Part shown: positions 3,066 through 7,577 of the stretch, piece by piece
How positions within the stretch are numbered: position 1 is the first letter of the stretch
How the letters are laid out: every line of letters starts with the position of its first letter
IMG/VR virus record: IMGVR_UViG_3300025127_000315
Span: 1 to 22,460 of that record
Length of the DNA: 22,460 nt
Reading direction: 5' to 3' (one strand)
Source: a virus
Made by a program: the position numbers and the translations under genes
Notes under the pieces: model-generated
Databases searched by the model: none
The model's input: only the letters and a program-made list of their open reading frames with translations
Told to the model about the DNA's origin: nothing

Positions 3066-3725
3066 ATGGTTCGACCAAGAAAAATAGCTGATTTAAAACC
3101 AATACTGACAAATGTAGCACAGACATCTCATTATCAGGTGTTTTTTGATGGATTATCTTCTGATCTTTTTTCTTTTTTAGGTAAGAAAGGGGTAAATTCA
3201 AGATTTATTACAGAGAATGCAGGATTACTGTGTTCATCAGCATCAATACCAGGCAGTTCATTAGGAACAAGTGATATATTTGGTAATTTTACTGGAGTTC
3301 AAGAGAAATTTGCTCACTCAAGAATTTTTACAGAGTTGGGATTAGAATTTTATGTTGATAAAGACTATAAAATGATAAAATTTATTGAACATTGGATGGA
3401 ATATATTACGAGTGGATCTGAGAAAAATCAAAACTCATCATTTAATAAAACGAATGAAGGATATTTTTATAGGATGAGATATCCTAGAGGTACATCAGGT
3501 TACAAATGTGACAAGACAAAGATCGTTAAGTTTAATATTGATTACCGTTCAGAAGTGGAATATACATTCTTTGGTTTGTTTCCTATTAATTTTTCGTCAA
3601 CACCAGTTCAGTATGGTGGATCAGACGTGTTAAAAATGAACGTAACATTTAATTATGAGAGATATATTGCAGGTGAACAGACAAGTCTATCATATACACG
3701 TAACATCTTCGAGAATTTTATTTAG
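3066..3725 (+). CDS. 54: gp54-like baseplate tail-tube initiator
   Basis: 219-residue protein matching the marine T4-like family annotated as gp54 (T4 gp54 is about 320 aa), which sits under the tail tube and starts its assembly. It shares the tube-protein fold of gp19 and gp48. Visible landmarks are 'MVRPRKIADLKP' at the N-terminus; 'LLCSSASIPGSSLGTSDIFGNFTG' type segment (residues ~54-77); 'RIFTELGLEFYVDKDYKMIKFIEHWMEYI' (~86-114); 'YFYRMRYPRG' (~133-142); and 'FNYERYIAG' near the end. The 'MRYP', 'FFGLFPINFSSTPVQYG' and 'FNYERY' elements are those expected of gp54/gp19-type tube proteins. It could equally be called a gp19-like tube protein. It is the first rightward gene after the divergent promoter and stands alone, with 119 bp before gp26. 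Confidence 0.82.
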   Translation: MVRPRKIADLKPILTNVAQTSHYQVFFDGLSSDLFSFLGKKGVNSRFITENAGLLCSSASIPGSSLGTSDIFGNFTGVQEKFAHSRIFTELGLEFYVDKDYKMIKFIEHWMEYITSGSEKNQNSSFNKTNEGYFYRMRYPRGTSGYKCDKTKIVKFNIDYRSEVEYTFFGLFPINFSSTPVQYGGSDVLKMNVTFNYERYIAGEQTSLSYTRNIFENFI

Positions 3726-3844: not shown

Positions 3845-4564
3845 ATGCCTTTACCAAGAATCACAACGCCGACATATGAGTTGGTTCTTCCTTCTTCGAA
3901 TCGAAAAATAAAATACAGACCGTTTTTAGTTAAAGAAGAAAAGATTCTCATCATTGCGATGGAATCAGAAGATCAGAAACAAATAACTAACGCAATTAAG
4001 ACAGTTATTAATAATTGTATATTGACGAGAGGTACAAAAGTTGATAAATTATCGACCTTTGATATTGAATATTTGTTTTTAAATATACGAGGTAAATCAG
4101 TCGGAGAAAATGTTGAGGTGATTTTAACTTGTCCTGACGATGATACCACTCAAGTTCCTGTAATGATACCACTTGATGAAATCAAAGTGGATATAGACCC
4201 AGAACATACAAAAGATATAAAATTAAATGAAAATTTGACCATGAGGATGAAATATCCCTCTCTGTCTGAATTTGTATCAAATAATTTTAGTCTTGATGGT
4301 AATGTGGGTGTATCTGAGTCATTTGATATGATTATCGCTTGTGTCGATCAAGTTTTCAATGAAGAAGAATCTTGGAATTCATCTGATTGCACGAAAAAAG
4401 AATTAAGTGAATTTTTAGATCAATTAAGTTCAAAACAATTTAAACAAATCGAAAAATTTTTTGAAACAATGCCAAAACTGTCACATACAGTAAAAGTCAC
4501 TAATCCTAATACAAAGGTTGAAAATGAAATTGTTTTAGAAGGGTTATCATCTTTTTTCGAATAG
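3845..4564 (+). CDS. 26: gp26 baseplate hub assembly protein (upstream partner of frameshift)
   Basis: 239-residue homologue of T4 gp26 (about 208 aa; T4 baseplate family), required to assemble the central hub. The N-terminus is typical of the marine family: 'MPLPRITTPTYELVLPSS', then 'KYRPFLVKEEKILIIAMESED', 'AIKTVINNCI', and 'FDIEYLFLNIRGKSVGE' (~residues 75-91). The middle keeps 'LTMRMKYPSLSEF'. The C-terminus is acidic and helical ('QFKQIEKFFETMPKLSHTV'). Start ATG at 3845 has a weak GAAG about 15 nt upstream. Within five codons of the stop lies the slippery heptamer T TTT TTC. A -1 slip there would read join(3845..4558,4558..4746) and give a 300-residue fusion with the next small ORF. 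So this gene probably makes two products: gp26 alone (239 aa) and a minor extended form, as lambda does with gpG and gpGT. Confidence 0.9.
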   Translation: MPLPRITTPTYELVLPSSNRKIKYRPFLVKEEKILIIAMESEDQKQITNAIKTVINNCILTRGTKVDKLSTFDIEYLFLNIRGKSVGENVEVILTCPDDDTTQVPVMIPLDEIKVDIDPEHTKDIKLNENLTMRMKYPSLSEFVSNNFSLDGNVGVSESFDMIIACVDQVFNEEESWNSSDCTKKELSEFLDQLSSKQFKQIEKFFETMPKLSHTVKVTNPNTKVENEIVLEGLSSFFE

Positions 4565-4593
4565 GTATGGCTCATACAAGTTTAGAGTCATAC
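4552..4593 (+). promoter_or_regulatory. Candidate -1 programmed ribosomal frameshift site
   Basis: The bases 4552-4558 read T TTT TTC, phased in the gp26 frame as TTT TTC: a canonical X XXY YYZ heptamer. After a 6-nt spacer, GTATGGCTC (4565-4573) pairs with GAGTCATAC (4585-4593), giving a 9-bp stem with a single G-U and an 11-nt loop. The -1 frame continues as R-I-G-M-A-H into the small ORF and stays open to 4746, while the 0 frame stops at 4562-4564. Heptamer, spacing and stem are the standard elements of bacterial -1 frameshift signals. Frameshifting itself is inferred. Confidence 0.7.
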
Positions 4594-4746
4594 TTTAAAA
4601 TAAATTTTGCGTTGATGCAGCACCATAAATACTCTTTAACAGAGATTGAAAATATGATTCCGTGGGAAAAAGACGTATATGTTGCTCTCTTGGAACAATA
4701 TATTGAAGAAGAAAATTTAAAAAACAGACAACAAAGTGGCATCTAA
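4567..4746 (+). CDS. gp51-like small hub-assembly ORF, probably expressed as gp26 fusion
   Basis: 59-residue ORF (MAHTSLESYF...NRQQSGI). It lies in the -1 frame relative to gp26 and is open back to the slip site at 4558. The protein is helical: 'LESYFKINFALMQHHKYSLTEIENMIPWEKDVYVALLEQYIEEENLKNRQ'-type composition, with a 'YSLTEIENMIPWE' turn like that in tail-assembly chaperone extensions (for example T of lambda G/T and related proteins) and in the T4 gp51 region. In T4, gene 51 (hub assembly catalyst, about 249 aa) follows 26, so position suggests a reduced gp51; the homology is uncertain. Free initiation at ATG 4567 is unlikely, since the only purines (AGG, 4563-4565) sit one base before the ATG. 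The end overlaps the next gene's GTG start by 11 nt. Earlier automated calls would probably miss it because of size. Confidence 0.78.
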   Translation: MAHTSLESYFKINFALMQHHKYSLTEIENMIPWEKDVYVALLEQYIEEENLKNRQQSGI

Positions 4747-6328
4747 CATCTCTAAAATTCCGTCAAATATGCTAAGTAATCCAAATTTGGATGCTGCGGA
4801 AGGGAAATATTTGTCAAAAAATGAAAGAGTTGCAATATTCAGAAAAAGAAAAATCAAAACGAGTAGTGTTTTTGGTAGAAAAGATCCAAAAATAACATCT
4901 ACACCAAGAAGGGGAAGACCAAGAAAGTTTCAGACTCTTGCAGAAGTACAGGCAGACATAGATGCAAGAAATCCAACGTATATAAGTCCTGTTACAGGAA
5001 AAAGATTACCAGGCACAGGACCTAAATTAAATTCAGATAAATTCATACCACAAAATAAGATATTAAAGGATTTACTTAAACAGGTTGAAAATAATACTAG
5101 AAAAATTGCATCATTGAGTAGTTTTGTTCAATCAAGCATTAATAAGGTATCTAATTTTTTAATTGATGATGCAAAAAAAGAAAAAAAGGATGCGATTGAA
5201 AAAGAAAAAGATGAAACCAGAGAACTGGAGGATAATCGAAAAAAGAAAAAAGAAGGATTATTGGAGGGAGTTAAAAAATCCATGAGTGGTGCTTTAATGA
5301 GACCTGTTGAAGCAATTGGTAATCAAGCAAAAGGTATGTTGCAAAAATTAGTTGATGTATTTCAACTCTTATTCGCAGGATTTTTAAGTGATAAAGCGTT
5401 AAAAATGATTCAGGCACATTTATCTGGTGATACTGAAACATTCAAAAAAATGAGAAATACAATCATCAAATCAGTTGCGATTGTTGGTGGTATTTTTCTT
5501 GCATTAAATGGTGGTTTACTAGCTTTGCCTGGCATTATAAGTGGTGTAGCAAGTGCCGTTATATCGATAGGTGGTGCAATTTTAGGTTTCTTAGCTTCAC
5601 CTGCAGGATTAATTGCATTAGGTATCGCAGCAGGTATTGGCACTCTGTTTGCCATGAAATCTGCAGTTGATGCTGGAAAAGTGAAAGCTGCTGGTGGTCA
5701 AGCATTTTATGATAAATTTGAGGAGATGAAAGGACCTCTGGTAGATGCTGGTATAACGATAAAAGGCACGGGCAAAAATGAAAAGTTTTATGTGGGCAAA
5801 TCAAATAGTAGAGGAAGTGGTCAAAAAACTGTGGAAAAGGCAGGGTCACCAGAACAGAAAGAAATCGTTGCAAATTACATTGTTGAAAGAGATAAAGTTA
5901 TTGCAATAAGAGATAATATGAGAGAGGATATGGAAACAGCGGAGAGTAAGTTAAGGAAAGAGTCAGGTGGTGGTAGAGTTGGATCTAAAAATTTACAAGA
6001 TTCAGGTGCGATTGGTAAGGCAAAAGGAGAAATAAGAGACAAGTATGAGTCTATGATAACTGGTGAGGAAAAATCAAATGCAAAAATAACACCAGTTGAT
6101 GAAAAGAAAGATGTTACAATCACACCTCCACCTAAAAATAATACAGTCTCTACACTAGATGATACACAACCAAATGTAATTGTTCAATCGTCTGCAAGTG
6201 GTAATAAAAATCAAAAACCACCTCAAGTCACTAGTGATTCAACAACAAAAGTTCCAAATATTTTGTCATCTAACAGAGATAATCTTTATTTGTCATATTC
6301 ACAAATTCAATACAATATGGTGATGTAA
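4736..6328 (+). CDS. Tape-measure candidate 1: basic, coiled-coil, multi-helix hydrophobic protein (530 aa)
   Basis: No family is recognised with certainty. Residues 1-70 are basic and include RRGRPRK (58-64), an AT-hook-like motif. About 90-180 is a helical, highly charged coiled-coil stretch (KKEKKDAIEKEKDETRELEDNRKKKKE). About 243-312 is a long hydrophobic block of two or three potential membrane helices rich in Gly, Ala and Ile. The last 200 residues are polar, ending in a Pro/Thr/Asn-rich linker and a short conserved-looking tail (NLYLSYSQIQYNMVM). Coiled coil plus transmembrane block is typical of tape-measure proteins. The position right after the gp26/small-ORF chaperone pair fits too, since lambda G/T precedes tape measure H. 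T4's tape measure, gp29, has about 590 aa. The start is GTG at 4736 overlapping the previous ORF; ATG at 4769 is an alternative. There is no Shine-Dalgarno, so coupling is likely. Confidence 0.75.
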   Translation: MASNISKIPSNMLSNPNLDAAEGKYLSKNERVAIFRKRKIKTSSVFGRKDPKITSTPRRGRPRKFQTLAEVQADIDARNPTYISPVTGKRLPGTGPKLNSDKFIPQNKILKDLLKQVENNTRKIASLSSFVQSSINKVSNFLIDDAKKEKKDAIEKEKDETRELEDNRKKKKEGLLEGVKKSMSGALMRPVEAIGNQAKGMLQKLVDVFQLLFAGFLSDKALKMIQAHLSGDTETFKKMRNTIIKSVAIVGGIFLALNGGLLALPGIISGVASAVISIGGAILGFLASPAGLIALGIAAGIGTLFAMKSAVDAGKVKAAGGQAFYDKFEEMKGPLVDAGITIKGTGKNEKFYVGKSNSRGSGQKTVEKAGSPEQKEIVANYIVERDKVIAIRDNMREDMETAESKLRKESGGGRVGSKNLQDSGAIGKAKGEIRDKYESMITGEEKSNAKITPVDEKKDVTITPPPKNNTVSTLDDTQPNVIVQSSASGNKNQKPPQVTSDSTTKVPNILSSNRDNLYLSYSQIQYNMVM

Positions 6329-6329
6329 T

Positions 6330-7577
6330 ATGGCAATAACAGGAACTCTACTTAAAATAGGAAAATCAATGGCAAAAACATCTGGATCTCTTCTTAAAGG
6401 GGTGCAGAAAAGCACATTGAATCTTCGAAAATCAACGATGAAACGTAATAAGATAAAGGATAAAGTTTTCGATAGATATTTAAGATTTAAAAAATATAAA
6501 AAAGAAAAGAAGAAGAGACAGGAAGAGGAGAGTCAACTTGAGCAGCAAAAAAAACCGCAAGAAGATCCAAATGTAAAAAAAACGAGGAAGTCAACAAGTA
6601 TGTTTGACAAACTAATGGAATTTTTAGGACTGATTCTTATTGGATGGATAACGAATAAACTACCTCAAATTATTGATTTTGTTAAAAAAGTGGTCGATAC
6701 AATTAAAAATATTGTCAATGGTTTTAAAAACTTTTTTGGTGGCATAGTTGGATTTTTTCAAACTATCGGAAAAGTTATAGGTAAGGCATTTGATGCAATT
6801 TCGAATTTGAAAATTTCTGATGTTGGAGAACTCGTAAAAAAAGCATTTGATGGTATTAAAGATGCATTTGGTAATATAAAAGATAATCTTTTAGGTGGTG
6901 TTAAATCATTTTTTGGTTTATCGAAAAAGAAACCGAAAAAAGATTTATCGATTGAAGGCATAGAGAAAGGAGAATTTGATGATAAAGAAATTTCATCAAG
7001 TTTCAGTAGTATGCAAAAAGAATTAGGAAAAGTAAATGAAAATTGGAACAAAACTATGTCAACCGTTGAGAGGGCAGGTACAGGAATTGATATTGTAGGA
7101 TCAGAAAATAGCGGCAATCTTGAAGAAGTAAGTGTAGATGGTGAAAAAGTGGAATCCCCAAATTCAACTGAAGCAAACATTCAAAAAGAACAGGCACCAA
7201 CAGGAAATAATTTAAATATTGACAGTAAAAATGAAGAAATTGTTGAGTTTGATAAAGAAGTTAAAGAAATTAAAAGTTTAAAAAAAGATAGTAGCAATAT
7301 TACCATTGAGACACTAGATGGTAAAATACTTAAATCTGGTGATGAGGGTTATAAAGAAGAGTTACAAAAATCTAAAGATGCCTTTATCTTAAGTCAAAAG
7401 AAGGTATCAACAAAAACAATCACCCCAGAGAGAAAAGCTAAAGATATAGTCGTCATCATGGATAATAAACAACAACAGATGATGAATCCTCCACCACAGA
7501 AACATAAATCATTCAATCCAGTTGTTGATAACTCAGACACGAGTGTCAAAGAACAAATTCTTCTACAATTAGCATAA
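6330..7577 (+). CDS. Tape-measure candidate 2: basic protein with amphipathic helical core (415 aa)
   Basis: Not recognised by name. Residues 1-90 are very basic (many Lys/Arg, 'KKYKKEKKKRQEEE' coiled-coil stretch at ~55-70). Residues ~91-197 form a run of hydrophobic and amphipathic helices with repeating 'IKNIVNGFKNFFGGIVGFF' and 'AFDGIKDAFGNIKDNLLGG' patterns that look membrane-active. From ~205 on it is acidic and low in complexity, and it ends 'QILLQLA'. The organisation (basic start, coiled coil, hydrophobic core, disordered tail) copies that of the preceding 530-aa protein, so the two may be diverged paralogues or two parts of one internal-tail assembly. They correspond in position to T4 genes 28/29 before or near 27. 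The start follows the previous stop as TAATATG; its own stop overlaps the next start (TAATG). Confidence 0.72.
   Translation: MAITGTLLKIGKSMAKTSGSLLKGVQKSTLNLRKSTMKRNKIKDKVFDRYLRFKKYKKEKKKRQEEESQLEQQKKPQEDPNVKKTRKSTSMFDKLMEFLGLILIGWITNKLPQIIDFVKKVVDTIKNIVNGFKNFFGGIVGFFQTIGKVIGKAFDAISNLKISDVGELVKKAFDGIKDAFGNIKDNLLGGVKSFFGLSKKKPKKDLSIEGIEKGEFDDKEISSSFSSMQKELGKVNENWNKTMSTVERAGTGIDIVGSENSGNLEEVSVDGEKVESPNSTEANIQKEQAPTGNNLNIDSKNEEIVEFDKEVKEIKSLKKDSSNITIETLDGKILKSGDEGYKEELQKSKDAFILSQKKVSTKTITPERKAKDIVVIMDNKQQQMMNPPPQKHKSFNPVVDNSDTSVKEQILLQLA

Follow-up and report, generated by a model that had tools for sequence, protein, structure and literature searches.

The gp26-like gene of the T4-type tail module analysed here very probably encodes two tail assembly chaperones: a short one, gp26 itself, and a long one, a gp26-gp51 fusion of 300 amino acids, which would arise when ribosomes slip into the -1 frame at the heptamer T TTT TTC near the end of the gene. 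This reading is built on comparison of sequences across a wide range of related phages, in which the heptamer, its codon phase and the reading frame behind it are all retained, even where the downstream frame possesses no start codon of its own.

Organization of the locus

The window, i.e. the whole stretch of DNA that was analysed, is IMG/VR record IMGVR_UViG_3300025127_000315 with a length of 22,460 bases. It derives from a marine T4-type virus and contains a T4-type tail module, features of which are listed in Table 1. Assignment of the gp26-like gene is firm, since its product scores 252.5 bits against PF12322 (curated cut-off 24.5) and covers positions 2-219 of the 219 in the profile. The gene, together with the extra domain in the -1 frame (referred to as T), lies between tube and tape measure genes, although profile matches of the downstream genes are weak. 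Two consecutive ORFs behind the junction both weakly match tape-measure profiles, and either of them is a candidate for setting tail length.

Table 1. Features of the gp26/gp51 locus, positions numbered from the first base of the window
Feature	Position	Strand	Supporting match or remark
Tail-tube-like protein, position of lambda V	3066..3725	+	PF23849 Phage_TTP_2, 2.1e-16
gp26-like gene, zero frame, 239 aa (read as short tail assembly chaperone)	3845..4564	+	PF12322 T4_baseplate, 4.7e-75; phrog_150, 5.7e-82
Internal Shine-Dalgarno-like sequence AGAAGGG, putative stimulator	4537..4543	+	8 nt upstream of heptamer; GAGGG in relatives, GAA GGG in window
Slippery heptamer T TTT TTC	4552..4558	+	In phase with gp26 frame: TCT TTT TTC GAA TAG
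C-terminal (T) domain in -1 frame, gp51-like, predicted to extend gp26 to 300 aa after the shift	4558..4746	+	phrog_634 'baseplate hub assembly catalyst', 1.1e-29; phrog_150 positions 231-278
5' arm of downstream stem, contains ATG of small ORF	4565..4573	+	9 bp with 4585-4593
Small ORF in the form expected from a gene finder, ATG start, 59 aa	4567..4746	+	Without usable ribosome-binding site
3' arm of downstream stem	4585..4593	+	Pair 4572/4586 covaries
Probable tape measure / gp29-like protein, position of lambda H	4736..6328	+	phrog_3981 tail length tape measure protein, 3.6e-5, weak
Second tape-measure-like ORF	6330..7577	+	phrog_58, 9.9e-13

Conservation of the slippery heptamer

An initial annotation of the window, made from its letters alone, had noticed the phased heptamer near the end of gp26, and this was borne out. 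Its distance from the stop codon had been misjudged: not five codons but a single sense codon, GAA, separates the two. Mere presence of the heptamer is weak proof of function, because about 5 phased T TTT TTY heptamers are expected by chance in the coding sequences of the window (0.007 if only the final ten gp26 codons are counted). The decisive evidence for a putative slip site is its conservation, not its rarity.

To describe this conservation, 196 distinct gp26/gp51 junctions were collected from IMG/VR and from isolates, reaching down to about 22% protein identity. T TTT TTN is found in phase in 193 of them, as TTTTTTC (180), TTTTTTT (11) or TTTTTTG (2); the remaining 3 have none. Codon usage was examined in an alignment of 80 distinct gp26 genes, most of them 67-100% identical to that of the window. 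The two phenylalanine codons of the heptamer are fixed as TTT in 80/80 and then TTC in 80/80, while codons nearby vary, just as the initial annotation would have it for a genuine signal. When columns of methionine and tryptophan are set aside, these two are the only columns of gp26 without synonymous change. TTC is the minority phenylalanine codon in these genes (301 against 716 TTT). Further, the residue ahead of the phenylalanine pair varies (Ser, Ala, Asn, Asp) and the third base of its codon is T throughout.

We considered whether the heptamer is kept only on account of the two phenylalanines, being otherwise meaningless. The Phe-Phe pair at the end of gp26 is indeed invariant at the protein level too. 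However, constraint on protein can fix neither the choice of TTT followed by TTC in 80/80 genes nor the T that ends a variable preceding codon, nor can it keep open a -1 frame that lacks a start. No relative with an intact -1 domain was found to carry TTC TTC or TTC TTT instead. Protein-level constraint is rejected by the fixed codon choice, and as a sole explanation it is hardly conceivable.

It is highly improbable, too, that the long form is made through slippage of RNA polymerase on the run of six T. What speaks for such transcriptional slippage is that a run of T is conserved. On the other hand, with only six T in 180 of 193 cases, the run falls short of the length that bacterial polymerases usually need. 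A ribosomal signal agrees with the codon phase of the run, with the spacing of the Shine-Dalgarno-like element and with the downstream stem.

Some loci deviate from the common pattern. Two Vibrio phages resembling Ackermannviridae (L004:2998-3890 and L107:2902-3905) have no canonical heptamer; their genes end in CTT TTT NGN-type sequences and TAATG, and these gp26/gp51 pairs may shift at another sequence or may simply be coupled. In one relative, 74% identical (L018:3001-3894; IMGVR_UViG_3300049043_000112, 236 kb), the heptamer is removed by a 2-nt deletion (TCTTTTTGG), which joins gp26 and the extra domain into one frame of 297 aa. The fused gene is the sole PF12322 gene in its contig. Either this phage naturally makes the long form only, or the T run was misassembled.

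The -1 frame domain

The downstream ORF lies in the -1 frame relative to gp26, as had been claimed, and this frame is open in the window from 4528 to 4746. The claimed sizes of the two products, 239 aa for gp26 and 300 aa for the fusion, were likewise reproduced. The -1 frame product matches phrog_634 at positions 56-116 of 121, i.e. the C-terminal part of that family. Its additional match to phrog_150 suggests that this profile includes members with both parts in one chain. The frame relation is conserved: 191 junctions could be read through, and every one of them has an open -1 frame, which continues for 58-75 codons. Three more phased X XXY YYZ heptamers (AAATTTA, TTTAAAA, AAAAAAC) occur at about 4713-4725, no more than eight codons from where the extra domain ends and just ahead of the overlap with the next gene; they are probably AT-rich coding sequence.

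We wondered if the extra domain could be made as a separate protein, by re-initiation at the ATG two bases past the gp26 stop codon (translational coupling), with the -1 relation resulting from the overlap. Such an ATG is present in the window and in about half of its relatives, and distant relatives display overlaps typical of coupled genes, ATGA or TAATG. However, within 15 codons from the beginning of the -1 frame there is no ATG in 67/191 junctions and no ATG, GTG or TTG in 44/191, with frame and domain kept. Among the start-less junctions are those of the isolated cyanophages ACG-2014b, -c, -d and -e; that of S-CAM1 lacks ATG in this stretch and has only TTG at codon 10 of the -1 frame. 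In such phages the whole domain cannot come from ordinary initiation or from coupling, yet it is conserved, so that only a shift can express it entirely. Several lineages have lost the downstream start codon but retained the -1 frame.

In the window itself, absence of a usable ribosome-binding site for the small ORF, already pointed out in the initial annotation, was confirmed: the nearest Shine-Dalgarno-like run ends 23 nt ahead of the ATG, too far to serve it, and the ATG is buried in the downstream stem. Coupling would also leave the fixed T TTT TTC and the fixed preceding T unexplained. As a general mechanism, re-initiation at the ATG is rejected by the 44 start-less junctions, and as the explanation of the pair we hold it to be highly improbable. 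In members that bear the ATG, coupled re-initiation could additionally yield a separate protein of 59 aa.

Public records reflect this organization incompletely. The conserved extra domain of 60 codons is unannotated in the records of ACG-2014b, S-CAM1, S-MbCM6/ACG-2014c, ACG-2014d and ACG-2014e (L087, L088, L268, L269 and L270, respectively), and for Methylophilales phage Melnitz-1 its annotation begins only at codon 21, an internal ATG.

Sequences flanking the slip site

At the Shine-Dalgarno-like site upstream of the heptamer, the glutamate codon is GAG in 129 of 170 junctions (76%), compared with 29% gene-wide (binomial p ~1e-36, a value that ignores relatedness of the sequences).

Downstream, the 6-nt spacer (4559-4564) and the 9-bp stem that had been described were found again. 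The best fold extends the stem to 11 bp (4563-4573 / 4585-4595) with -12.8 kcal/mol and z of -5.2; 0 of 200 shuffled sequences were as stable. Within the clade of the window, 93.4% of stem cells are paired, versus 87.4% in shuffled alignments and at most 47% in slid versions, and the covariation score is 0.159 versus 0.064 shuffled. Pair 4572/4586 occurs as G-C (30), U-A (28) and A-U (6), a swap that turns glutamate into alanine or valine in the -1 protein. To judge from these pairing patterns, the stem is selected as RNA in this clade.

Conservation of the hairpin, which the initial annotation had put forward as a check, thus holds in the clade of the window and fails outside it, where downstream structure is weak, absent or different. 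The stem as a universal element is therefore rejected; being clade-specific, it is regarded as accessory and not as core of the signal.

Proposed mechanism and comparison with known systems

We infer that the shift occurs, and likewise its rate and the binding partners of its products, along the following lines. P-site and A-site tRNA-Phe would slip together at T TTT TTC, re-pairing from TTT TTC to TTT TTT. The Shine-Dalgarno-like sequence, 8 nt ahead of the heptamer, would aid slippage, as would, in this clade, the stem 6 nt behind it. A minority of ribosomes would then read 62 more codons in the -1 frame to give the 300-aa gp26-gp51 protein. The predicted fusion junction reads ...SSFFRIGMAH..., and junction peptides would be, for example, GLSSFFRIGMAH... 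By analogy with lambda G/GT, many short and few long copies may coat the tape measure protein, with the extra domain recruiting tube subunits.

The putative signal resembles that of E. coli dnaX, whose heptamer is A AAA AAG, in its three parts: a Shine-Dalgarno-like sequence about 10 nt upstream, a slippery heptamer and a 3' stem-loop about 6 nt downstream. A phased X XXY YYZ heptamer and a Shine-Dalgarno-like site are found here as well; a 3' stem-loop 5-9 nt downstream is found only in the window's clade, and in this lack of wider conservation the signal differs from the dnaX type.

With lambda G/GT (and P2 E/E' and the HK97 class) the locus shares a short protein, a long protein (here predicted) extended by -1 frameshift, a slip site where the first ORF ends and a position between tail tube and tape measure genes. 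The two differ in that the proteins are unrelated in sequence at the Pfam level, that the tail is here of contractile T4 type, and that the lambda slip site is G GGA AAG. Lambda G/GT bind the tape measure protein and recruit tube subunits, as described in PMC5009743. The same device is known from the tail assembly chaperones of Vandenendeviridae and Andersonviridae treated in PMC12846349, in which a poly-T -1 frameshift with invariant GTTTTT is located in a myovirus chaperone gene; these belong to other phage families and are likened to gp26 by the device alone.

Interpretation of gp26 as the short and gp26-gp51 as the long tail assembly chaperone, and hence the equation with lambda G and GT that the initial annotation had drawn by analogy, finds support in the position of the genes, in T4 gp51 as an in-frame long form (see below) and, weakly, in fold. 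For an AlphaFold2 model of gp26 (pLDDT 87.7), the best-ranked PDB structure is 2OB9, the HK97 tail assembly chaperone, with a non-significant E of 1.4, prob of 0.54 and TM-score of 0.43 by target. A sequence search of PDB with a gp26 profile retrieved no phage protein, and a PDB search with a folded model of T4-like gp51, a natural long form (locus L090), gave no meaningful match. Against Pfam, gp26 matched PF12322 only (up to E of 1) and no Phage_TAC family. This lowers the claim to common descent, not that to function, because the class is defined more by position and mechanism than by sequence.

Arrangement in T4 and evolutionary considerations

T4 possesses both families, PF12322 and the phrog_634 extra domain, but distributes them over two genes, gp51 having a gp26-like part of its own, whereas in the window one gene would give both forms through frameshifting. 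T4 gp51 is a PF12322 protein over aa 1-201 (3.9e-52), followed by the extra domain; it matches phrog_634 with 1.2e-23 (2-103 of the profile) and phrog_150 over 13-280 of 282. Since genes 26 and 51 are divergently transcribed in the T4 genome, a frameshift between them is impossible. T4 thus carries the short form and the long form as separate genes, the latter being gp51, in which both parts are in frame. According to PMC10885494, some T4-like phages encode the short form and a fused long form in two genes in place of the frameshift. In a Klebsiella phage (L106:3001-4292), a gp51 gene of the long form and, immediately behind it, a shortened gp26 (184 aa) share one strand, unlike the divergent pair of T4.

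To estimate relationships between these proteins, an unrooted tree of 39 gp26-like domains was constructed. T4-type gp26 and gp51 copies group together versus all proteins of the frameshift type (96/93 support) and each of the two forms its own group. This topology fits one duplication in the T4 branch. Since the tree is unrooted, that frameshifting is ancestral is something we only infer.

The predicted frameshift type spans cyanophages, other marine myoviruses and phages of Vibrio, Aeromonas (Chrysonvirus), rhizobia, Caulobacter and Stenotrophomonas. It also occurs in phages filed under Straboviridae: Chrysonvirus (L100), Schizotequatrovirus (L272) and EniLVp02 (L109). A scan of IMG/VR with KVP40-like gp26 found no relatives. 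The distribution of sequences suggests that the frameshift pair is present in nearly all relatives outside the T4 branch and that the T4-type exception is confined to the branch around T4. It is likely that frameshifting is the general, and probably the ancestral, route to the long tail chaperone in the T4 superfamily, and that T4 replaced it by one gene duplication.

Conclusions

A review from 2016 describes G-T frameshifting as a conserved trait of long-tailed phages, 'except T4' (PMC5009743). The supposition in the initial annotation that nothing of the kind had been described for T4-like phages is doubtful. Identification of gp26/gp51 as tail assembly chaperones is prior art, made in 2022 by Vladimirov, Gautam and Davidson as cited in PMC10885494 and PMC12846349; the latter also credits them with poly-T slip sites in T4-like phages, so the slip site may already have been reported then. 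Our analysis adds the breadth of the pattern, selection at the level of codons, a signal in three parts and lineages without a start codon. It also corrects annotation, the domain being missing in ACG-2014b, -c, -d and -e and in S-CAM1 and started at an internal ATG elsewhere. The product of gene 51 has long been regarded as an essential 'catalyst' of the hub, its function unknown. If the exception is limited to the T4 branch, gp51 would become open to study as a long-form tape measure chaperone, with lambda as a guide.
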